A stretch of 27,265 bases of DNA from a virus, in IMG/VR virus record IMGVR_UViG_3300030107_007911, positions 1 to 27,265 of that record; one strand, given 5' to 3'. This document shows positions 1 to 26,240 of this stretch, piece by piece. How positions within the stretch are numbered: position 1 is the first letter of the stretch; the number at the start of each line of letters is the position of its first letter. A program made the translations under genes and the position numbers. The notes below the pieces were generated by a model. The model searched no databases. It worked only from the letters and a program-made list of their open reading frames with translations, and was not told the origin of the DNA.

Positions 1-1691
1 CCGTCTGCGAGATCTTTTATACCACCACCTAATTTAGAAAGTCTGTCTGCATTAATGGATGTATCTTTAGATATTTCTGCAAATACATGGAGAGGGCCTT
101 TTTTCTCACTACCAAATAAACTTCCAATTGCATTACCAATTCCTCCAGCTAGATCTGCAATTCCTCCTGCAGCTCTACCACCAGCAAATGCTAGCATTCC
201 AGTACCAAGATCAAAAATACCTTTTCCTATTTGTGCAAGTTTATCACCATCAATACTTTCCATTTGTTTCATTGTTTCCCCAGCGAATCCACCAAGAAAA
301 CCACCAATACCTTTACCAATGTTTGTAAGGAGTGTTGCCAAACTTCCACCAACATTATCTCCACCTAATTTTGCAATAAAGTCTGCTGCTAAGATTGGTA
401 ACATAAAAGCAGCAATACCAGCACCGATTGCACCCATACCAATTGGAACACTTATGAGAGCCGCAGGCCCAAGAGCAGCTCCAAGAATACTACCTGCTAT
501 TATTAATCCACCAAGAGCAGTAAGTCCAATTCCATCAAACGCACCCATGAAGTTTTTCAAAAGAGTTGCAACACTACTCCCATCTATTGAACCTAATGCT
601 TCTAATCCTCCAACTTTTGCAAGACCATCAGCTAAAAGAAGACCAACAGAAAATCCAGCGATACCAATACCAATTGCTGTCATTCCTGCTGCTAAACCAA
701 TTGCACTTTTTATGTCTTTAATTCCAAGTTTTGTTGCTATTCCTGCAAGAGCAACAATTGATCCCAGCCCTATCGCAATCTCTGGTGTTATTGCAGAGAA
801 AAATCCTTGTAGTAAATTTGTAAGTGCACTAAAATCTATTGCTCCCATTGCTGAAACACCAAAATCAACAAGTTTAGAACCCAATAATATACCACCAGCG
901 AAACCAGCAATACCAGCACCGATTCCTGTCATCATTGTAGCCATTTCACGGCCTTTGACCTTAAATCCAGCCAATAATCCAGCAATTGTAGCAAGAACAC
1001 CCACCCCAGCAGCAGTTTCTGGTGTCATTGCACCAAAAAAACTATTCAATAAAGTAGCAAGAGCTCCTCCATCTAATCCACCTAATGTTGACAAGCCAAA
1101 CTGAGCAATTCCAGAACCTAATAATATACCACCAGCAAATCCTGCAATACCAGCACCCATTGCTGTCATCATTCCAGCAAACATTAATGGTTTAACTCTG
1201 AACCCAGCCAATAAGGCAGCTATTGTAACTAGTACACCCATCTTTGCAGCGTTTTCTTCACTAAATGCATCAAAGAATGTAGAAATGATACCTACTAAAA
1301 CTTTAGGATCTCCACCTATTAATTCTGCAATTTTAGATGCACCACCTAATGCTATAACAAAACCACCGATACCAAGACCAAGAGCTATCATACCTTTTCC
1401 AAATCCCATGGCAAGGCTTCCAACTGCTTTTCCAATTACACCCACTCCTGCACCAATACCACCAAGAAGACCTGCAATAAGTCCACCAGATTTTTTATCT
1501 TTAGCAGTTGCAGCACCAAAACCTTTATTAAGAGTATTTAAAATACCTTGAAAGATACCTTTTTGTTCTGCATCGGCACGAGCCTTTTCATCCGCAGCTT
1601 CAACATCTGCCGCAGATTTTGGTGGATTTTTAATGGTATCTTCAACCGATTTTAATGAATCAACTACATCATTTAAATTTTTTTCAGCCAT
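1..1691 (-). CDS. Probable tail tape measure protein (Gly/Ala-rich repeats), C-terminus beyond window
   Basis: Seen: an open minus-strand frame of 563 codons from ATG at 1691 to the left edge, no stop. It starts MAEKNLNDVVDSLKSVEDTI, has a charged N-terminal region of about 65 residues, then a long very hydrophobic Gly/Ala/Ile/Leu-rich body. The body has about five related units of roughly 79 residues, each with a core like GAGIAGFAGGILLGS. Tape measure proteins run inside the tail tube and set its length; hydrophobic, repetitive helices and a position directly after tail-assembly chaperone genes are typical. Here the gene follows a gp26-family gene with a probable -1 frameshift, the canonical context. 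No clear sequence match to T4 gp29 is recognised, so the role is inferred from composition and position. There is no strong Shine-Dalgarno before the ATG. An alternative is another membrane-like virion protein, for example one ejected with the DNA. The antisense strand shows long proline-rich open frames that are shadows. Confidence 0.6.
   Translation of the reverse strand, partial: MAEKNLNDVVDSLKSVEDTIKNPPKSAADVEAADEKARADAEQKGIFQGILNTLNKGFGAATAKDKKSGGLIAGLLGGIGAGVGVIGKAVGSLAMGFGKGMIALGLGIGGFVIALGGASKIAELIGGDPKVLVGIISTFFDAFSEENAAKMGVLVTIAALLAGFRVKPLMFAGMMTAMGAGIAGFAGGILLGSGIAQFGLSTLGGLDGGALATLLNSFFGAMTPETAAGVGVLATIAGLLAGFKVKGREMATMMTGIGAGIAGFAGGILLGSKLVDFGVSAMGAIDFSALTNLLQGFFSAITPEIAIGLGSIVALAGIATKLGIKDIKSAIGLAAGMTAIGIGIAGFSVGLLLADGLAKVGGLEALGSIDGSSVATLLKNFMGAFDGIGLTALGGLIIAGSILGAALGPAALISVPIGMGAIGAGIAAFMLPILAADFIAKLGGDNVGGSLATLLTNIGKGIGGFLGGFAGETMKQMESIDGDKLAQIGKGIFDLGTGMLAFAGGRAAGGIADLAGGIGNAIGSLFGSEKKGPLHVFAEISKDTSINADRLSKLGGGIKDLAD
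380..1400 (-). repeat. Tandem ~79-residue hydrophobic repeats in the probable tape measure gene
   Basis: Repeat cores fall near 1390, 1160, 925, 685 and 440 (minus strand), a period of about 237 nt. The pair at 1120-1176 and 883-940 is very similar at DNA level, implying recent duplication. At protein level each unit carries a Gly-rich hydrophobic segment (GIGAGIAGFAGG type), then a polar segment (such as ALTNLLQGFFSAITPE) and a further hydrophobic helix. Confidence 0.75.
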
Positions 1692-1711: not shown

Positions 1712-1912
1712 TTATTGAATTTTACTTTTACGATTTTGTTCTTCAATCTTAGCATTTTCTTCATTTACCCATTGCATAAGTAATTCTGAATATAGTGTTC
1801 TTTCGTAGGGCAACATATCCTCGATTTCCGTCAAACTCCATTTATGGTGTTGTATCATTGCAAAATTTTGTAAATAATACGCTTCAAGTGAGTTATGACT
1901 TAGGCAGATGCG
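1712..1912 (-). CDS. -1 frameshift extension of the gp26-family protein (GT-like tail assembly chaperone part)
   Basis: Seen: reading one base back after the TTC codon at 1914-1912 opens 66 sense codons before TAA at 1714-1712, filling almost the whole gap between the gp26-family gene and the tape measure gene. The extension starts RICLSHNSLEAYYLQNFAMI and continues with HHKWSLTEIEDMLPYERTLY, then a charged helical end. The only internal ATG (1858) would give 48 residues and has no Shine-Dalgarno in front, which favours expression by frameshift. The fused product would be about 299 residues. Known: in most long-tailed phages the gene pair before the tape measure makes two proteins through a programmed frameshift (lambda gpG/gpGT) and chaperones the tape measure. 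Inference: this is the same arrangement in a T4-like phage. It could instead be a separate small gene with a weak start. Confidence 0.7.
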   Translation of the reverse strand, partial: RICLSHNSLEAYYLQNFAMIQHHKWSLTEIEDMLPYERTLYSELLMQWVNEENAKIEEQNRKSKIQ

Positions 1913-2610
1913 AAAAAAGAAGCTAACCCCTCTAAAGTTTCCTTTTCAGTATTCCCACACTTTGGACAAGTGTATTCAATGTCTTGTTTCATTTTTGGTA
2001 AAGATTCATAATAATCTTGAATCTTTTTAAATTGTCCAGAATTTAGTGAATTTAAAAATTCATCTAACTCTTCTCTAGTATGATCTTGAGCAGAAAATAC
2101 ATCTGCACCTTGGATAATTTCAACTAAACATTCTCTAACTATCTCCATAACCAAATCCACTTGATTTTTATTTCCAGCCCCGATTAAGTTATCTATACTA
2201 GGAGGTTTTAAACGAATTGAAATATCATCTGTTATGTTTACTAAATCAGATATGTTTTCATTTCTAACTATTTCTACTTTAGAAAGATCTACATCAAGTT
2301 TAATAGTTTCACCACATTTTTTACATTCAAATGAAATTGAACTTATATCACCAACTGCTTTTCCTCTAATATTAAGAAAAAGATACTCAAGATCAATCAT
2401 TGAAATTTTATTGACATTAAAACCCTCAGTTGTTACGCACTGAGTTATTATTTGTTTTATTGCCTTTATCATCTCCTTTTCATCTTGTCCTTCTAGAGCC
2501 ATAAGAAGAATTTTTTCTTCTTTAACTAAAAAAGGTCTGTATTCAATCTTTTCACTAGATGATGGTAATTTTAAATCATATAGTATAGTATTTAATTTTG
2601 GCAAAGCCAT
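1900..2610 (-). CDS. gp26: gp26-family baseplate hub / tail assembly protein (T4_baseplate family)
   Basis: 236 residues from ATG at 2610, chosen because an AGGAG Shine-Dalgarno (+ strand ctcc at 2617-2620) sits just upstream; an upstream in-frame TTG at 2628 has no such support. The N-terminus (MALPKLNTILYDLKLPSSSE, then YRPFLVKEEKILLMALE) is the signature of the T4 gp26 family. Two CxxC pairs, C96/C99 and C215/C218, look like a zinc ribbon near the C-terminus. In T4, gp26 is annotated as a baseplate hub component of 208 residues. Its place just before the probable tape measure gene, and the slippery site four codons from its C-terminus, suggest that in this phage it acts as a tail assembly chaperone like lambda gpG. 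Family assignment is firm; the chaperone role is inferred. Confidence 0.82.
   Translation of the reverse strand: MALPKLNTILYDLKLPSSSEKIEYRPFLVKEEKILLMALEGQDEKEMIKAIKQIITQCVTTEGFNVNKISMIDLEYLFLNIRGKAVGDISSISFECKKCGETIKLDVDLSKVEIVRNENISDLVNITDDISIRLKPPSIDNLIGAGNKNQVDLVMEIVRECLVEIIQGADVFSAQDHTREELDEFLNSLNSGQFKKIQDYYESLPKMKQDIEYTCPKCGNTEKETLEGLASFFASA
1912..1918 (-). promoter_or_regulatory. -1 programmed frameshift slippery heptamer TTTTTTC
   Basis: On the minus strand the codons TCT-TTT-TTC contain T-TTT-TTC in the X-XXY-YYZ register for simultaneous -1 slippage of two tRNAs. It lies four codons before the zero-frame stop (1902-1900). The -1 frame stays open for 66 codons. I did not find an obvious strong downstream pseudoknot or an upstream internal Shine-Dalgarno by eye. 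Confidence 0.65.
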
Positions 2611-16281: not shown

Positions 16282-18177
16282 ATGAGCGATGTATCTTCTA
16301 AACTTAAAGTATCTGAATTAGATTTCGATAATATTAAATCAAATCTTAAAAATTTTTTAGGTGATCAAAATGAATTAGCTGATTATAATTTTGATGGTTC
16401 AGCAATGTCTGTTCTCATGGATCTTTTGGCCTACAACACTCATTACAATGCATTCTATTTGAACATGATTGTAAATGAGATGTTCCTTGACACAGCATCT
16501 CTCCGAAACTCTGTAGTGTCTAGGGCCAAGCATTTAGGTTATACTCCTACTTCTGTTAGGGGTGCAAAAGCTTATGTTGATTTAACCATTACTCCTGCAA
16601 ATACTCCTGCTACTATTGTAATTGCAAAAGACACACAATTTAATGCTGTAGTAAATGGTATCTCTTATGTATTTTCTACATCCAATTCCACTACTTTGAA
16701 TGTTAATTCAAATGGTGTATATACAACAGCTAATGTAGAGTTACAACAAGGTATACTTTTAACACATAGATATACTGCGAATGTCTCAGATCCAGATCAA
16801 AGATTTACTTTACCTAATGCAAATACAGATACAAGTTCACTTGTGGTACAAGTACAAACTTCTGCAACTAGTTCAAATTTACACACCTATTCAGTAGCAA
16901 ATGATACAACTACAATAAACTCTACAGCCAACGTATACTTTTTAGAAGAAGATACAGACAATAAATACAGAGTTTATTTTGGTGATGGAACTATTGGAAG
17001 AGCATTAACAAGTGGTAATATTATACTTTTAAAATCTTTAATAGCTGATGCGGGTGCTACAAATGGTGCAAGGACATTTACTCCTGTTAGTACAGTTGGC
17101 GGTTATTCAAATGTTACAGTAACAACATTATCAGCTGCTTCTGGTGGTGCAGACAGAGATTCAATTAGTGATATAAAATTTAATGCACCAAGAAATTACC
17201 AAGCTCAAAATCGTGCAGTAACACTTAATGACTATATTAGACTAGTTCAAAGAGATTATGCAGATGCAGAGTCAGTTATTGCTTGGGGAGGTGAAGATAA
17301 TGATCCACCAGTTTATGGTAAAGTGTATCTAGCAATAAGGCCAGAGTCTGGACTTAATCTTTCGGTCACTGCTAAAAATTCAATTAAAAATGATATTTTA
17401 GCAAAAAGAAATGTGGTATCTATTTCAACTGAAATAGTAGATCCAGATTATTTGTATTTAACTTTTGATAGTACTGTTAAGTATGACTCCTCTAAGACTT
17501 CAAATACTGCATCCACCATAGCAGATTTAGTTTCTAATACTGTTTACAATTTTGGTGTAGACAATCTTAAAGGTTTTGCAAATGAGTTTAGATACTCACC
17601 TCTGATTAAAAAAATTGATGAGTCTGAAACTTCAATCGAAAGTAGTCTCTCTACAGTTAAATTAAAAAAAATATTTGTTCCTTCTCTTAATGTATCTAGT
17701 TCTTATACTTTAAATTACAATAATGAAATTTTTCACCCTTATACTGATTATGTAGATTCTGTTACCAGTACAGAATTTGCTCATTTTGATGCTGACGACA
17801 CTTTAAGAACAGGGTGTAATCTACAAGATGCAAATGGAGTAATGCAAGTTTATCGTACAACAGGAGATACTAGAATTATTGTTGCAAACAATGTTGGAAC
17901 TGTTACTTATGGTTCGGGTGTAGTTGCTCTTGCTGGATTTAAACCAGTTTCAATTGGAGATGGTACTGCAAATTTATCGGTAACTGTTGCGTTAGCGTCA
18001 AGTGATGTTACACCAGTTAGAGAACAAGTTTTACTTATTACCAATAATGATATTTCTGTTGCAATGGTGGATACCTTTGGAACAGGAACAAGTACTACTG
18101 GTACTACTTCTTCCGCTGTTAGTGGTTCAACTTCTGGTGGATCAAGTGGTAGTGGTGGCTCGGGAAGTAGCTACTGA
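16282..18177 (+). CDS. gp6: Baseplate wedge protein gp6 (baseplate J-like)
   Basis: 631 residues; T4 gp6 has 660. N-terminal wedge-core segment: LKNFLGDQNELADYNFDGSA, then LLAYNTHYNAFYLNMIVNEM and RAKHLGYTPTSVRGAKAY, the hallmark of gp6/gpJ proteins. A second conserved block is at residues about 310-365 (LNDYIRLVQRDYADAESVIA, WGGEDNDPP, GKVYLAIRPESG). gp6 dimers form the iris-like ring that joins the wedges and holds the hub. The last 30 or so residues (from about nt 18079) are an unusual Ser/Gly/Thr-rich low-complexity tail that does not look like part of the fold. The stop overlaps the next start (TGATG), so gp7-like synthesis is probably coupled to gp6. Confidence 0.92.
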   Translation: MSDVSSKLKVSELDFDNIKSNLKNFLGDQNELADYNFDGSAMSVLMDLLAYNTHYNAFYLNMIVNEMFLDTASLRNSVVSRAKHLGYTPTSVRGAKAYVDLTITPANTPATIVIAKDTQFNAVVNGISYVFSTSNSTTLNVNSNGVYTTANVELQQGILLTHRYTANVSDPDQRFTLPNANTDTSSLVVQVQTSATSSNLHTYSVANDTTTINSTANVYFLEEDTDNKYRVYFGDGTIGRALTSGNIILLKSLIADAGATNGARTFTPVSTVGGYSNVTVTTLSAASGGADRDSISDIKFNAPRNYQAQNRAVTLNDYIRLVQRDYADAESVIAWGGEDNDPPVYGKVYLAIRPESGLNLSVTAKNSIKNDILAKRNVVSISTEIVDPDYLYLTFDSTVKYDSSKTSNTASTIADLVSNTVYNFGVDNLKGFANEFRYSPLIKKIDESETSIESSLSTVKLKKIFVPSLNVSSSYTLNYNNEIFHPYTDYVDSVTSTEFAHFDADDTLRTGCNLQDANGVMQVYRTTGDTRIIVANNVGTVTYGSGVVALAGFKPVSIGDGTANLSVTVALASSDVTPVREQVLLITNNDISVAMVDTFGTGTSTTGTTSSAVSGSTSGGSSGSGGSGSSY

Positions 18178-21100
18178 TGATAACAGATGGTGGAATTCTT
18201 TATAGTCAAATAGATTCACAACTTCCTAGTTTTGTTCAAACTGACCACGCAAAATTTTCTAAGTTCATAGAAAAATACTATGAGTTTCTTGAACTGAATC
18301 TTATTACCTTCACAGATTTAGACCTCAATGAAGATGCCATTTTACAAGAAAAGGCAAATACCACATACACCATAACTGTTGCTACTGGTAATAACTCATA
18401 CAGTAATTCTGCAAATAAATTTTATGTTGATGGTGCAGTTTCTCCAACCATAACACTTACCACAGGTGCTCATGCCATCTTTGATCAAGGTGATGAAACT
18501 AACGCCACACACTACTTCCACATATCGAAAACACCAAATGGTATTCACACAGCTGGTGGTGAACAATTTATTACTGATGACAGAGGGGATATACTTTTTA
18601 CCTATGATGGTGAGCCTGGAGATCTTGACAATATTACACTTCAAGATAATTCTGGAATTTTGCTCTATGAGGATATGACATTTGCGATTGGTGATACTAA
18701 TATAGTTTTTGATAATATTACACTTGAAGATGATTCTGGAATTTTAATTTACAATGAAATTATTACGGCCGGTGGTTACCTTTCATTTGAAGCTGGTCAC
18801 CAAATATTGTTGGAAGAATTTACAGGTTTATCTGAAAATAAATTTATACAATCTGAAGACTTTACTATAGATGGAACTGGAACAGTCGAAGTTGCTTATG
18901 AAAAAACTACTGGAATAGAAGTTGGACTTGAATCATCCTCTACTGCAGCATTTTATGTTTCACCAGATCTTGCTGGGGAAACTCTCTACTACTATTGTAA
19001 TAATCACTCTGGAATGGGTGGAAGTATTACAGTATCTAATGTTACATCTTATATTTCTCAAGAAAATGGAAATACTGAGTCCTCAAATACTTCTACAGAT
19101 TATATCACTATTGAAAATGATAAAAGACAGGGTGATCAATTTTTAAGTGGTGAAATAATTCTTGGAGCAAATTCTGGTGCCACTGGTATTGTTAAGGGAA
19201 AATACTCAAATACTCAAGTTTATATTGAAGAAACAAATAATGGTGCTTTTGAAGTAGGTGAAAGTATTAGTGGTAAATCCTCAAGAGCCACTGCTAATAT
19301 AAGTTCATATTCTAGACAACCAATCAATGCATCTAGAAATGTAAAAGCTTTTCAAGATATTGATAAAGCTCCAGCAGGTTTTGTTGAACTATTCAGAAAA
19401 GAATTTTTAAGTGGGTTTAATAAAAATGAAGATATAAACACAGCTAATTTACTCAAAAATATAAAAGATTATTATCGTGCAAAAGGTAATGAAAATTCTT
19501 TTAGATTTATTTTCAGTTTACTTTTTGGTATAGATGATGTAACTTTTTATTATCCTAGTAATGATATGTTGAGACTTTCTGATGGAAGATGGACTCTTGA
19601 CAAATCAATTAAAATTCTTACAGACTCAGCAAGTTTTCCAGATTCTTTTTTAGGTAAAAGAATTGTAGGACAAACATCTAATGTTTCTGCAGTTGTAGAA
19701 AGGGTTGAAAGATACGCAGTTGGTTCACTTGATGTTACAGAATTTTTCTTATCTGGATTTGATGCTAATAACGCTAATTATCAAGCAACTGAGAATGCTG
19801 ACTATACCACATTTTTCTTGGGTGAAGCAATAAAAACTCAGACTGCAGATGATGATGGAAATTTCGCAACAGCAACCACAAGTGGAGTTTTACAAAGTGT
19901 CGATATAGTATTTGGAGGCTCTGGTTATACAAAGGGTGATGAACTACTAGTTACTGGTGGAGGTGGTACAGGAGCTAAAGCTAAAATTGGTTCGATAGCT
20001 GCAGCCTCTCTTACTGGAATTACTGTAGTAGATTCGGGCGATGGTTATACAGTAGGTGATGTAGTTACATTTGTTAATGATGGAACTGGTGGTACTGGTG
20101 GTACTGCTAGAGTTGATAGTATCGTTAAGACAGTAAATGTATTTACACAAACTGAAGTTATTAGTACATTTAAAACTGATACATTGGATGCTTCTGCATT
20201 TTCTTCACCTTGGTCATCATTTACAGTAAACACTCACTTATCATCAAATTCTACTACCACCTTTACTGTACCATTTGATGGTCTTTCTGGTACTACTCCA
20301 AAACAAGGAGATTTTATTGCCAAGTTTGGAAGTGGTGAAAGTATTACTTTATACACTCCAGGCACCTCAAAATTTGGTACAGTAGTTAGTACAAACTCTA
20401 CCTCAATTACTTATGCGTTAGGTTCAATAGACTATCAAACAACTCATAATGTAGATCCAACTTTAAATAATTTTGTAAACAATGATGAAGTAACTATTTT
20501 TGATCTTTCTAAAGATGGTGATGGAAGTGCAATAACATCTAATGGATACAATGCCACATTTCGTGCAACTGGTGCAACTTTTGATATCAATGGAACTCCC
20601 GCTGCAAATACAGATTCCACTTATCATGGTTCATTTACAATGCAGGAATCTTCAATCGGTGGTGTTCGTTCAGTTCAAATATTATCTTCTGGTCAAGGAT
20701 ATGAAACAGTCCCGCCTGTTTCTGTAGCAAATACTGAGATAGCTTCTTATCGTAATGCACCAGAAAAAGTTGGTGCAAATTCTATATTTGTTAATCTTGC
20801 AAATACTATTGCGAATACATTTACAGCAAATACTTTAGTCAAGAATGCTTCAAATAATGCTTTTGGTATTGTTCTTGATTTTCTTGACCTTGCTTCAACA
20901 ACTTTAGCTGACACAGGGAATACTACTTTAAGAATTCAAATGACAAGTGCTAACACGTTTAGCTCAAATGATATTCTTACTGCTTATAGTAGAGCTGATA
21001 GTAGTCCAATCGGAATTGGTGATTTTGGAACTGCAAATGTTTCTACATCTGGCACTACTGCTACATTTACCCAAACGAATCATGGATTTGGTGCGGGAGA

Positions 21101-24100
21101 TAGAATTGTAATTACTGGTTCTGAATCTGCAACAGATAATACAGTATACAATAATAATCATACAATCTCAGGAATTACAAATTCTTCTACTTATACTGTA
21201 ACTCTCGCGAGTGATCCTACTGATGATAGTGAGACTTCATTAACTGTTAGAAAAATTGTTACAGCAAATGTATTGGCAGATTTATTACTTACTGAAGATT
21301 CTACAACCACACAAATATCTTTTGAAAATGGAATAGGAACTGCAAATGATGATTACAGTAATTCTGCAAGTAATGGATCTATTATAGTTGAGAGTGGAAT
21401 AGATGAAGCGAATAGTACATTTGCAAATACTGGAATACCTGGCAACAACGCAATTATTGAAGTTGCACAACTTGCAGTTGGTGCAATTGAAACTGTTTTA
21501 GTTTACGATTTTGGTGCTGGATACGCTTCGGCTCCAACGATTAATGCTTCAGCTGTTGGTGATGGTACTGCAACATTGACAGGAAATGTTGGTGTTTATG
21601 CAGAATATACTGGATACTTTAATGGTAACTATGGATTATTGAGTGGTACAAATAAAATGCAAGACAATTTGTATTATCAAGATTTTTCATATGTTGTTAA
21701 AACAAATAAAGACGTTGCCACTTATAGAGATAAGATATTAGAACTAGTACACCCAGCTGGAATGGCTTTGTTTGGTGAAATTTCAATGACAGATCAACTG
21801 TCTGTTAAACTATTCAATGATGCTACAAATAATATAAACTCAACTCAAGCAAATACTGCACAAGTAGCAAATACAGAAAATGCTTCACTTTATAACTTTC
21901 ATGAAATTGAGTTCTATACTTCAAATACAGCTTCAACCAACAATCAAATTGAGGTTGAATCTAGTTTTGAATTCAAATCATTTTCTTCTGGAATTTTTGC
22001 TGGCCCAGAAAATGATGCAAGACTTGACACAACTGGATCTAGCACTGATTTTGATTTACAGTTAGAACATGGAAGTGATGTAATTTCTTTAGAAGAATTT
22101 GATTTTTTCCTCGCATTTGAAAATACTGGTGAAATTCTTCTTGAACAAGATTTAGGTGGAGAAGTTGGAGATAGACTAATAGAAGAAACAGCTGACTTCT
22201 TACTTACTGAAGATATGTTGTCTCGTACAAGGTTAGAAGATGCTACAAATGACAATGGAGATGTACTTCTTTTAGAAGATGGTGAAACAAGTAATGATAA
22301 TTTTTCTCATGAAGGTGTTTTATTAAATGAAGAAAATGATGGTTCTTCACCAATAATATTTGAATTTTTTGAACCAGAACTTGGAAGAGTTACTACTGAA
22401 GATGGCGATAATATATTGGTTGATGTTCTAAGTTCATTTACTTTACAAATAGATGAATTTTTTGGTAATTATATTATTATGGAAGATGGCACTTTTTTTG
22501 TTCAAGAAGATGAGGCTGGTAAATTTTCACAGGGATTTAAAATACAACAAGAAGGTGTTTTTACATTTACTGAAAAAGAAGGAAATCTTATACAAGAAGA
22601 TGGTGCTTTTGTATTACTTGAAAGACAACTAATTGATGAATCAGACCGCCCAATAGGATTAGAAATTCCATTAGGTGGTACTTTTGAAACTGTGTACATG
22701 GAATTGGAACAAGCTGAAGGGGGTGATTCTCAAGTTAGAGAAGATAGTGTCTCATATTTTGCTCTTGAAGAGGATGTAGATTTAGTACAAACTTTAAGAT
22801 TAGAAGCTGAAGATGGTGATCTTTTATATGAGGATGGACTTTCTATTCTTCTTCAATCACAAGGAGTAGAAAGAACAATTAGAATTCGTAATGAAGAAGA
22901 AGCTTCACATTTTCAAATGGAAAATTTTGATAGTGATCTAGTACAAGAAGAACAATATCAACTTCAACTAGAATCTTATACTCTCCCCTCTCTCACAGAT
23001 GTAGGATTTATTATACAAGAAAATAATGATGCCCTTCATCTTGAAGAACCTAGTGCATACGATACTGATAATGACGAGTTCCGTACTGCAATTTACGCGG
23101 AATACGGCCTCTTTACATTTGTCCAAAACTCATCTAATTTAAGGGCTCAAGATGGTGATGTGAGAGATGTGAAGTTTAATAATGATGGAACTAAAATGTT
23201 TGTGTTAGGTAGGGGTAATGATGGAGTTTATGAATATTCATTATCAAAAGCATTTGATGTTTCAATATTAACTTTTGTTCATAAGTTAGATATTAGTGAT
23301 GAAGAGACAGCGGCAAATAGTATAGAATTCAATCTAGACGGAACTAAATTGTTTGTGTTAGGTCAATCTGGTGATAATGTTGATGAATATGCATTAAGTA
23401 CAGGTTTTGATCTCTCAACAGCCTCCCCAAATGGTACTATTTTTGATGTTAGTGGCCAAGAAGGTCAGCCTTATGGTTTGGCATTTAATAATGATGGAAC
23501 TAAAATGTATGTTAGTGGTTGGCAGGGTGACGATATTAATGAATATGCATTAACAACTGCATTTGATGTTTCGACAGCATCATTTACTCAAAATTTTTCA
23601 ATAGAAGGAACAGGACGCAGTAATCCATCAGCAGTACAATTCAATGCAGATGGAACTTTCATGTATGTTTTACAGGGTAATACCAATGCTCGCATTCATG
23701 AATACTCATTAACAACTGCATTTGATATTTCAACAGCATCTTTTACAAATAGAGTTTTTGATGTAACAAATGAAGAAAACAGAGCAAGAGGCTTCTGTTT
23801 TAGTAATAATCATTCTCAACTGTTTGTTACTGGTTGGCGTGGAGATGATATTAATGAATATACTGTAAATTATTCTCTTCCAGATACATCACACTCAGAT
23901 GAGCCGGTAGATAGAAGTCCTTCATATTTTCTTTTTGAAAATGATGATGCAGATGCTAGAGCATATCTGTTAGAAGAACCAACAACAATTTATCAAAATA
24001 TTCAAAGTGAAGATCCAAATGATCAATTTGTTATTATTACAGATGATACTGCAGATACCATTATACTTGAGATAGAAGAATTTATTACTGATACAAATTT

Positions 24101-26240
24101 TAAAGGTGAGTCTTATGATTCTGGAACTGGTTTCTTGTTACCAATGCTTCTTTTTCCAACAGCTGAATCAGGCTCTGCAACACTAGACCTTAGTTTCACT
24201 AGTCGAATAGTGATGGAAATTGATGATATACAAAATGTAAGATTAGAAAATGATGGTGGTGATCTGCATTATGAGGATGATGGTAAAATTTTATATGAAC
24301 AGCAAGAAACAACATCCGTAGGTTATCAGTATGACTTCATATTATTAGAAGAATCTGATGGTACAAATCCAGTATATATTGCCACAGAATCTTCTATGAC
24401 AGAAGAAGTAGATGGTATAGGAGAAATTGAAATAGTCTCTGATGGAGAAATGTTTCTACAACTTGAAAATGTACATGGAAAACATGATAATGGATTTCTT
24501 ATAAATGAAGAGGGTTCTGGTATTGAATTAGAAGTTGGCACAAGTGGTGGTGGAGGTGAAATTATTTTTGAAGATGGAGAAAAACTCCTTCTAGAAGTTG
24601 ATGAAGAAAATAAATTTAAAGTAGAATTTCCTAGTGTTGCTGCATCAGTTAGACCTACAGTTTCAGCTTTAAATACTGGTGACACTCTTAATGAAGGTAG
24701 TTTCTTAACTAGAGGTTTTGGAAATAGAACATACGGATCAGTTGCTCTTTCAGAATTATCGGGTGAAGTAGTAACTGCAACTGGAACTGTCACTCAATTT
24801 GAATTTGACTTTAATAATCTTATAGTTCTTGAAGCTGAAAAAGGAGTTATAGTATTAGAACAAGATACACCAGAAGAAAATTCAATTATTTTAGAAAATA
24901 ATAATCCAGATATTTTTGGTCTTCTCCAACAAGAAGATGGAAGTAAAATTTTTACAGAAGAAGATATACACACACTAATTCCAGCTCCAGAAAGACTTTG
25001 CCATGTTGGATTACACGATTTAATTTTAGAAGAGGAAGGTATTCTTCAAGAAGCAGTTGATCAAATTAAATTAGAAGATTTTACATTAGATAATGTAGTT
25101 CAAGAAGATTTTATTATAGGGGAATTCGTTCCATTTCTTGGATTTGGAGATGAGGCTGATGAATCAATAACTATTGATGACAATATATTATTAGAAGCTG
25201 CAACACATAAATCAGAAAATGTAGTTATTGAAGCTGAAAATGGAGATTTAATTGCGGATGAGTCTGATGGCTCAAGTCATTTTGTTTTGGAGAATTTTTT
25301 CTTTAAATATTATAATGTAGGAACTGTTACTCAAACTGGAACAACTATAACTGTATCTGGTGGTCAATTTCCTTCTGCTGTAGTAGAAAATGGAAGATTT
25401 TATTATCAAAATGGACAAGATTCAACAGTTATTACAGCAGTATCTGACAATCTTAATGAAATAACAGTTGAAGAATCTAGAACAATAAGTTCACCAGAAA
25501 ACTATAAAGTTGAATACGCACTTGATGATACTCCAGCAGATTCTACCTCAGTTATAATAATGGAAGCTTTCAGTCTTGATCCAACAACTGAGCGTGTTAG
25601 AATTGATTTAATTTTTAATGGAGAGGGTGATGTCAATCATGGATTTACTAGAGGTGAAGACTCAGATGGTCTTGGAACATTTACATTATCTATTGCGGCA
25701 TTTACTGATATCGTTGGAAATGATATTATATATGAAGATGGAGAAAGAATTTTAGCTGAAGATTCAATTGGTGGATATATTGCTTTTCAAGATTCACCAC
25801 AAAATGTTTCTTTAGGTATTGCTCATAGTAAAGTTTTAAATGAAGATGATTCTGGTGGTTTTATATCAACTGAAGATCATGAAGGTAATGAAACAACTCA
25901 AGATGATAATGTTCTCTTAAAGGAATTGAGTGACGCACTTCTACTAGAAGACAGCGAAACTGAAACTTTAAATTATGTACTAAGTGAAGAAGGAGGACAA
26001 ATGATGCTTGAAGATGTCTTTCAAGTTTCAGAACATAAAATAGTTTTTGATAGTAATGATTCCATATTAATAGAAGATCAACCCGCTGGTAATGATTATA
26101 GATTATTGAATCTAGATATGGGGAAATTTGATATTGAAACAATAGCTAACAACACATCAATGACAATTAATGCATCAACAGATTTTTTCAAAAGATCTGA
26201 TTCTGCTATATTAGTTTCAAGAACAGAACAGATTGTTTGA
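18177..26240 (+). CDS. gp7: Giant gp7-like baseplate wedge protein with cupredoxin-like, propeller-like and acidic repeat regions (2687 aa)
   Basis: T4 gp7 has 1032 residues; this is over twice that. Layout: 1-60 N-terminal helix (LPSFVQTDHAKFSKFIEKYY, typical of marine T4-like wedge proteins); 91-287 cupredoxin-like domain split by an insertion (H112, C274, H277, M280); 385-480 core block NLLKNIKDYYRAKGNENSFR then YYPSNDMLRLSDGRW; 570-650 Gly-rich 'TGITVVDSGDGYTVGD' modules; about 955-1022 a 'NHGFGAGDRIVITG' beta-module; about 1170-1210 return of core-like sequence (YQDFSYVVKTNKDVATYRDK, LELVHPAGMALFGE); 1257-1650 acidic LLED repeats; 1651-1901 five propeller-type repeats; 1918-2640 more acidic repeats with a beta-module at 2382-2445. 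The gp7 role is supported by position between gp6 and gp8. The large C-terminal half is probably surface-exposed, perhaps host contact. No frameshift is seen across the 8 kb. Confidence 0.68.
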   Translation: MITDGGILYSQIDSQLPSFVQTDHAKFSKFIEKYYEFLELNLITFTDLDLNEDAILQEKANTTYTITVATGNNSYSNSANKFYVDGAVSPTITLTTGAHAIFDQGDETNATHYFHISKTPNGIHTAGGEQFITDDRGDILFTYDGEPGDLDNITLQDNSGILLYEDMTFAIGDTNIVFDNITLEDDSGILIYNEIITAGGYLSFEAGHQILLEEFTGLSENKFIQSEDFTIDGTGTVEVAYEKTTGIEVGLESSSTAAFYVSPDLAGETLYYYCNNHSGMGGSITVSNVTSYISQENGNTESSNTSTDYITIENDKRQGDQFLSGEIILGANSGATGIVKGKYSNTQVYIEETNNGAFEVGESISGKSSRATANISSYSRQPINASRNVKAFQDIDKAPAGFVELFRKEFLSGFNKNEDINTANLLKNIKDYYRAKGNENSFRFIFSLLFGIDDVTFYYPSNDMLRLSDGRWTLDKSIKILTDSASFPDSFLGKRIVGQTSNVSAVVERVERYAVGSLDVTEFFLSGFDANNANYQATENADYTTFFLGEAIKTQTADDDGNFATATTSGVLQSVDIVFGGSGYTKGDELLVTGGGGTGAKAKIGSIAAASLTGITVVDSGDGYTVGDVVTFVNDGTGGTGGTARVDSIVKTVNVFTQTEVISTFKTDTLDASAFSSPWSSFTVNTHLSSNSTTTFTVPFDGLSGTTPKQGDFIAKFGSGESITLYTPGTSKFGTVVSTNSTSITYALGSIDYQTTHNVDPTLNNFVNNDEVTIFDLSKDGDGSAITSNGYNATFRATGATFDINGTPAANTDSTYHGSFTMQESSIGGVRSVQILSSGQGYETVPPVSVANTEIASYRNAPEKVGANSIFVNLANTIANTFTANTLVKNASNNAFGIVLDFLDLASTTLADTGNTTLRIQMTSANTFSSNDILTAYSRADSSPIGIGDFGTANVSTSGTTATFTQTNHGFGAGDRIVITGSESATDNTVYNNNHTISGITNSSTYTVTLASDPTDDSETSLTVRKIVTANVLADLLLTEDSTTTQISFENGIGTANDDYSNSASNGSIIVESGIDEANSTFANTGIPGNNAIIEVAQLAVGAIETVLVYDFGAGYASAPTINASAVGDGTATLTGNVGVYAEYTGYFNGNYGLLSGTNKMQDNLYYQDFSYVVKTNKDVATYRDKILELVHPAGMALFGEISMTDQLSVKLFNDATNNINSTQANTAQVANTENASLYNFHEIEFYTSNTASTNNQIEVESSFEFKSFSSGIFAGPENDARLDTTGSSTDFDLQLEHGSDVISLEEFDFFLAFENTGEILLEQDLGGEVGDRLIEETADFLLTEDMLSRTRLEDATNDNGDVLLLEDGETSNDNFSHEGVLLNEENDGSSPIIFEFFEPELGRVTTEDGDNILVDVLSSFTLQIDEFFGNYIIMEDGTFFVQEDEAGKFSQGFKIQQEGVFTFTEKEGNLIQEDGAFVLLERQLIDESDRPIGLEIPLGGTFETVYMELEQAEGGDSQVREDSVSYFALEEDVDLVQTLRLEAEDGDLLYEDGLSILLQSQGVERTIRIRNEEEASHFQMENFDSDLVQEEQYQLQLESYTLPSLTDVGFIIQENNDALHLEEPSAYDTDNDEFRTAIYAEYGLFTFVQNSSNLRAQDGDVRDVKFNNDGTKMFVLGRGNDGVYEYSLSKAFDVSILTFVHKLDISDEETAANSIEFNLDGTKLFVLGQSGDNVDEYALSTGFDLSTASPNGTIFDVSGQEGQPYGLAFNNDGTKMYVSGWQGDDINEYALTTAFDVSTASFTQNFSIEGTGRSNPSAVQFNADGTFMYVLQGNTNARIHEYSLTTAFDISTASFTNRVFDVTNEENRARGFCFSNNHSQLFVTGWRGDDINEYTVNYSLPDTSHSDEPVDRSPSYFLFENDDADARAYLLEEPTTIYQNIQSEDPNDQFVIITDDTADTIILEIEEFITDTNFKGESYDSGTGFLLPMLLFPTAESGSATLDLSFTSRIVMEIDDIQNVRLENDGGDLHYEDDGKILYEQQETTSVGYQYDFILLEESDGTNPVYIATESSMTEEVDGIGEIEIVSDGEMFLQLENVHGKHDNGFLINEEGSGIELEVGTSGGGGEIIFEDGEKLLLEVDEENKFKVEFPSVAASVRPTVSALNTGDTLNEGSFLTRGFGNRTYGSVALSELSGEVVTATGTVTQFEFDFNNLIVLEAEKGVIVLEQDTPEENSIILENNNPDIFGLLQQEDGSKIFTEEDIHTLIPAPERLCHVGLHDLILEEEGILQEAVDQIKLEDFTLDNVVQEDFIIGEFVPFLGFGDEADESITIDDNILLEAATHKSENVVIEAENGDLIADESDGSSHFVLENFFFKYYNVGTVTQTGTTITVSGGQFPSAVVENGRFYYQNGQDSTVITAVSDNLNEITVEESRTISSPENYKVEYALDDTPADSTSVIIMEAFSLDPTTERVRIDLIFNGEGDVNHGFTRGEDSDGLGTFTLSIAAFTDIVGNDIIYEDGERILAEDSIGGYIAFQDSPQNVSLGIAHSKVLNEDDSGGFISTEDHEGNETTQDDNVLLKELSDALLLEDSETETLNYVLSEEGGQMMLEDVFQVSEHKIVFDSNDSILIEDQPAGNDYRLLNLDMGKFDIETIANNTSMTINASTDFFKRSDSAILVSRTEQIV
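18447..19037 (+). other. Split cupredoxin-like domain inside the gp7-like protein
   Basis: First half (residues 91-130): TITLTTGAHAIFDQGDETNA then THYFHISKTPNGIHTAGGEQ. Second half (233-287): GTGTVEVAYEK, then AAFYVSPDLAGETLYYYCNN and HSGMGGSITV. The C-x2-H-x2-M loop (C274, H277, M280) with an upstream His (H112) has type-1 copper ligand order, with the loop spacing of amicyanin. Residues 131-232 interrupt it with acidic repeats. Copper binding is inferred, not shown. Confidence 0.6.
18627..18770 (+). repeat. 84-nt spaced direct repeat within the cupredoxin insertion
   Basis: The segments beginning at 18627 (DNITLQDNSGILLYED) and 18711 (DNITLEDDSGILIYNE) are nearly identical at DNA level and 84 nt apart, in frame. 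They are the first members of the acidic LLED-type repeat family that expands later in the gene. Confidence 0.75.
21945..23130 (+). repeat. Acidic 'LLEDG' repeat tract 1 in the gp7-like protein
   Basis: Many irregular copies of a short motif, roughly hydrophobic-hydrophobic-x-E-D-G-x-hydrophobic-hydrophobic-x-E (for example GEILLEQD, DVLLLEDGE, NYIIMEDGTFFVQEDE, GDLLYEDGLSILLQ), spaced about 12-25 residues. The region is extremely rich in Glu/Asp/Leu/Ile and encoded by recurrent GAAGAT codon pairs. A beta-solenoid-like or extended beta structure is possible. Confidence 0.7.
23150..23880 (+). repeat. Five ~48-residue beta-propeller-type repeats in the gp7-like protein
   Basis: Each repeat follows the pattern V-x-F-N-x-D-G-T-K-M-F-V-x-G-x(4)-D-x-[VI]-x-E-Y-x-L-[ST]-T-A-F-D-[VI]-S-T-A-S. 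Repeats start near 23157, 23300, 23460, 23615 and 23770. DNA identity is high between repeats 1 and 3 (FNNDGTKM) and 3 and 4 (LTTAFDVSTAS), implying recent duplication. The pattern resembles YVTN/SMP-30-like propeller blades. Confidence 0.75.
23930..26100 (+). repeat. Acidic 'LLEDG' repeat tract 2 in the gp7-like protein
   Basis: Same motif family as tract 1, for example DLHYEDDGKILYEQ, EIIFEDGEKLLLEVDE, DLILEEEGILQEA, DIIYEDGERILAED, NVLLKELSDALLLED. It is interrupted near 25321-25510 by a beta-module of the 'GTVTQTGTTITVSGGQFPSA' kind often seen in marine phage structural proteins. Confidence 0.7.

Follow-up and report, generated by a model that had tools for sequence, protein, structure and literature searches.

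A conserved slippery heptamer near the 3′ end of a gp26-family gene points to a lambda G/GT-type pair of tail assembly chaperones in marine T4-like phages

The window analysed here, a stretch of 27,265 nucleotides from IMG/VR virus record IMGVR_UViG_3300030107_007911, carries on its minus strand a gp26-family ORF of 237 amino acids (1900..2610; putative short form, TAC-N), which begins with an ATG at 2610 preceded by a good ribosome-binding site (AAAGGAGAATATT-ATG) and closes with a stop ending at 1900. Its product matches PF12322 (T4_baseplate, gp26/gp51; E 2.6e-58, 197.7 bits versus a gathering cut-off of 24.5) as well as phrog_150 (E 4.6e-61), and displays zinc-ribbon-like Cys pairs beyond its N-terminal domain. 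On the minus strand the 3′ end of the gene reads TTA GAG GGG TTA GCT TCT TTT TTC GCA TCT GCC TAA, and includes the slippery heptamer T-TTT-TTC (1912..1918) in X-XXY-YYZ register, with TTT as the predicted P-site codon and an A-site codon that would change from TTC to TTT. A preliminary description of this DNA had placed the heptamer four codons before the stop, and both its coordinates and its register were confirmed: counting back from the zero-frame stop, the TTC is codon four, and the zero-frame part of a slipped product would end with residue 233.

Slippage by one base at this site would open a -1-frame extension of 66 codons and a stop (1712..1912, minus strand; TAC-C, 'gp51'), generating a predicted fusion of 299 amino acids (TAC-NC; 1712..2610, minus strand). 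As had been proposed, the extension nearly fills the gap to the next gene, since its stop ends at 1712 and the ATG of that gene, at 1691, is 20 nt away. A stop located 11 codons upstream of the slip site closes the -1 frame, and the extension therefore does not belong to a longer ORF in its own right. A single internal ATG lacking a Shine-Dalgarno sequence had been described previously; there are in fact three in-frame ATGs (1858, 1816 and 1777), along with two TTGs, while the second part of the claim stands, as none of the three ATGs is preceded by a convincing Shine-Dalgarno sequence.

The ORF that follows (3..1691, minus strand) runs off the window and encodes a long, hydrophobic product with repeated GAGIAGFAGGILLGS-type segments. 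It had no match in Pfam, PHROG or NCBIfam, nor by tblastn in 50,697 phage records, and BLASTP against the annotated tape measure proteins of HTVC008M and Cr30 gave nothing significant; a homologue of 851 amino acids is encoded in the contig of locus L004. By its position and its repetitive, hydrophobic make-up, this ORF is probably the tape measure gene. Of the lambda-like gene order suggested earlier, what is seen is a long repetitive ORF after the chaperone candidate, its tape measure identity being proposed from position. Elsewhere in the window, on the plus strand (18177-26240), lies an ORF for a product of 2687 amino acids in which degenerate acidic repeats of the LLEDG/LLEESD type are numerous; few baseplate or fibre proteins would be expected to be this long.

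The window is AT-rich, and among its 8,527 codon positions there are 8 in-register T6Y heptamers; a single heptamer is therefore weak evidence, and conservation decides. We scanned IMG/VR with the zero-frame gp26 protein alone and obtained 80 loci, with relatives at 79-35% identity. Every one of the 80 has TTTTTT[C/T] in the register seen in the window, with 0-8 codons left before the stop, and its -1 frame then encodes a homologue of the extension, truncated in a few cases by the end of the contig. The heptamer and the extension were also identified in 14 phage genomes, which include cyanophages, a pelagiphage, Cr30, and KVP40-like and Aeh1-type phages: S-CAM1, HTVC008M, P-SSM2, S-PM2, Melnitz, Caulobacter phage Cr30 and MA01; Aeromonas phiAS5, Vibrio D527, KVP40-like V09 and Cronobacter S13; and three further Straboviridae, Aeh1, vB_VmeM-32 and Citrobacter Ci1. 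For most of these named phages the search had started from the fusion sequence, a query biased towards genomes that contain both parts, and the IMG/VR set is therefore the cleaner test. The in-register TTTTTT[CT] is present in 92 of 92 loci, window included (72 with C and 20 with T), and in addition in the three further Straboviridae. The preliminary description had proposed that the heptamer and the -1 frame be compared across relatives, and within this group no relative that was compared lacked either of them, so that the outcome named there as refuting did not arise.

The codon preceding TTT-TTY is GAT, AGT, AAT, TCT or GCT, such that the encoded amino acid varies and the final T is always kept; a T ending is expected at approximately 0.65 per site from codon usage, a value that gives no exact probability for the set because the loci share ancestry. 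The Tevenvirinae serve as a control, as their two-gene arrangement makes a frameshift unnecessary; their gp26 proteins keep the KEFF motif, spelled GAG TTC TTT and without the heptamer, in four of four cases (T4, VAC36, Cronus and PhiZZ30). Thus, Phe-Phe is kept for the protein, and the slippery spelling is tied to the -1 extension. Judged from these sequence comparisons, the slippery signal is under selection.

The extension itself was assigned to the gp51 family phrog_634, named 'baseplate hub assembly catalyst', with an E value of 1.8e-24. In an alignment of 48 sequences its mean column identity is 58%, and the third codon positions of the -1 frame are the most variable (mean entropies of 1.04, 0.74 and 1.46 bits). 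Its predicted model consists of three helices (pLDDT 84), for which Foldseek, run with the extension alone, returned no significant match. Both gp26 and gp51 of T4 belong to PF12322. When profiles were compared with hhalign, T4-type gp51 aligned with the fusion over residues 1-288 (99.6% probability), whereas the alignment with T4-type gp26 stopped at residue 239, shortly after the slip site. T4 gp51 therefore corresponds to the long form and gp26 to the short form. Genes 26 and 51 of T4 are separate and divergent, an orientation shared by VAC36, Cronus, PhiZZ30 and L9-6.

This correspondence also bears on earlier observations. Compared with gp51 from other phages, the cyanophage protein was noted by Sullivan et al. 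2010 to have 'only ~20% of the length', and gp51 to be 'missing only in Aeh1' (PMC3037559). In Aeh1 (L105:2778-2944) and S-CAM1 (L083:3215-3396) the -1 extension is present and unannotated, and gp51 is seemingly missing. Both the shortness of cyanophage gp51 and its absence from Aeh1 can be explained because the missing 200 residues would be gp26, joined by the frameshift.

Some other phages also carry a -1-frame gp51-type extension after the gp26-family gene, without the TTTTTTY heptamer: the Ackermannviridae Madison, EspM4VN and Sajous1 (L093, L095 and L096), which have a conserved GA(A/G)-ATT-TTC-AT(T/C)-TAA gene end, and Vibrio phage K388 (L094). A TAATG stop-start overlap is found in K388 and EspM4VN. 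In Streptococcus phage vB_SagM-GXN1 (L097:3980-5000), a gp26-like gene is accompanied by a 'YYGNYSVTDIESM' extension that is apparently in the +1 (or -2) frame, which suggests a different recoding direction.

Candidate stimulatory elements were sought on either side of the heptamer. In relatives, the anti-Shine-Dalgarno duplex energy peaks just upstream of it (GGAGGG, about -15 to -10), and over the 57 related loci that remained after dereplication at 85% extension identity this stretch is stronger than in synonymous resampling (mean -6.6 versus -5.0 kcal/mol, p 7e-8). The window carries a Shine-Dalgarno-like GAGGGG at 1927..1932 on the minus strand (-8.2 versus -5.5 kcal/mol). GGAGG, GAGGG or AGGAG precedes the heptamer in 25 of the 57 loci; the closest relative, L002, has the weaker GAAGGA in place of GAGGGG, so the element is not universal. 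Downstream of the heptamer, the window shows no convincing hairpin (MFE -3.2, weaker than the synonymous controls). Stable hairpins are predicted after the heptamer in several loci, among them S-PM2, P-SSM2, L006, L042, L050 and L076. The idea that such a conserved hairpin is required was nevertheless rejected for the window and many relatives, as it is restricted to a subset and the overall excess is weak (p 0.026). A tentative scheme, to which we give somewhat less than even odds, is that T4-type slippage uses an internal Shine-Dalgarno-like stimulator approximately 10 nt upstream, as in dnaX, that the hairpin is limited to certain lineages, and that Ackermannviridae employ another slip site or start.

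The gp26 protein was also examined by structure prediction. The AlphaFold model (pLDDT 89) gave as its best three VIA-align matches 3fgx (Z 6.3), the HK97 chaperone 2ob9 (Z 5.6) and YqbN 3klu (Z 5.1), all within gp26 residues 1-96, a trio that includes prophage proteins and values that at this level a common arrangement could also give. Below them came 5ir0, from a phage satellite of Vibrio cholerae (Z 3.8), and a clearly unrelated fold did not appear until Z 3.3. Of the Foldseek matches listed, 2ob9 had the highest probability (0.66), though its E value was 1.0, and a PDB sequence search with the gp26 profile returned nothing. The fold match of the predicted N-terminal domain to chaperones is thus suggestive. 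T4 gp26 and gp51 are themselves listed as hub assembly chaperones, gp51 being essential and of unknown function (PMC3004832). The assignment of gp26 as a tail assembly chaperone forming a G/GT-type pair, as put forward in the preliminary description, is supported by the conservation of the site, by the colinearity with gp51 and by this partial fold match.

The reading that best accommodates these data is that one gene yields two tail assembly chaperones by -1 slippage of the lambda G/GT type, with a probability of roughly 0.93. It is very unlikely that the extension is instead a separate small gene whose translation depends on reinitiation or on a start codon of its own. It is annotated as a separate 'gp51' in many cyanophages and, among the genomes compared here, in P-SSM2, S-PM2, HTVC008M, Cr30, MA01 and D527, and in some loci an ATG occurs only a few codons from the stop; however, just 16 of the 57 dereplicated loci have an ATG no more than 12 codons from the slip site, the first extension ATG of the window, which lacks a Shine-Dalgarno sequence, falls deep within the conserved domain, in T4 this segment is joined to a gp26-like domain, and an invariant heptamer would have no reason to exist. 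An independent gp51 gene was rejected, as its starts are not conserved.

That the long form arises from transcriptional rather than ribosomal slippage, as a run of T might suggest, has very little probability: a T precedes TTT-TTY and the register for tRNA re-pairing is kept in all 92 loci, and the run is only six T in most of them, which is short for polymerase slippage. The family names ('baseplate hub') could be taken to mean that gp26 is merely a part of the baseplate hub and the -1 frame a decaying remnant, an idea that can hardly be credited given that the extension is strongly conserved as a protein and varies most at the third positions of the -1 frame.

Under -1 slippage, most ribosomes would terminate at 1900 and produce the short gp26 form. 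A minority would slip back by one base at T-TTT-TTC, with tRNA-Phe re-pairing from TTC to TTT, and would go on to synthesize the 299-residue form with its helical gp51-type domain. By analogy with lambda G/GT, the short form could coat the tape measure protein, and the extra domain of the long form could recruit the tail tube protein. We infer the occurrence and rate of slippage and, through this analogy, the binding partners.

A study by Vladimirov, Gautam & Davidson (Virology 566:9-15, 2022) is said to have found frameshifting conserved in several T4-like groups, with T4 using genes 26 and 51. In the account given by the PRFect paper (PMC10885494), which cites that work, there are T4-like phages that have a short gene and a longer fused one in place of frameshifting; as cited in the Adele paper (PMC12846349), TAC-N genes of T4-like phages carry poly-T slippery sequences. 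The preliminary description, whose author knew of no established frameshift of this kind for T4-type gp26 proteins, lacked this earlier work: the chaperone assignment and the poly-T sites had been proposed in 2022 according to these two citing accounts (PMC10885494, PMC12846349). On the same accounts, a frameshifted chaperone in T4-like phages is already published, and the window is another case. Its significance is that a chaperone isoform is wrongly annotated, or has no annotation, in many genomes of marine T4-like phages. Lambda-type G-T frameshifting was described by Atkins et al. 2016 as widely conserved 'except T4' (PMC5009743), and while T4 is the named exception in that review, its wider relatives are no exception.

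The arrangement described here resembles that of lambda gpG/gpGT, in which a short chaperone and a long form, made by a -1 frameshift near the 3′ end, precede the tape measure gene, here a probable one. The two systems differ in that no sequence relation was detected between the lambda and window proteins, and in that lambda slips on GGGAAAG, whereas the window site is TTTTTTC. With the HK97 tail assembly chaperone (2ob9), the window protein shares a partial predicted fold over gp26 residues 1-86 (Z 5.6), but the two are only 8% identical and gp26 carries further domains. T4 gp26 and gp51 are likewise members of PF12322, with gp51 colinear with the entire window fusion; unlike the window, T4 employs two divergently placed genes, and its gene 26 ends without a slippery heptamer. 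Finally, the window, from an uncultivated marine lineage that may lie outside the set of Vladimirov et al. 2022, has in common with their T4-like chaperones, as the citing papers portray them, gp26 as the short form, the extension/gp51 as the long form and a poly-T slip site.
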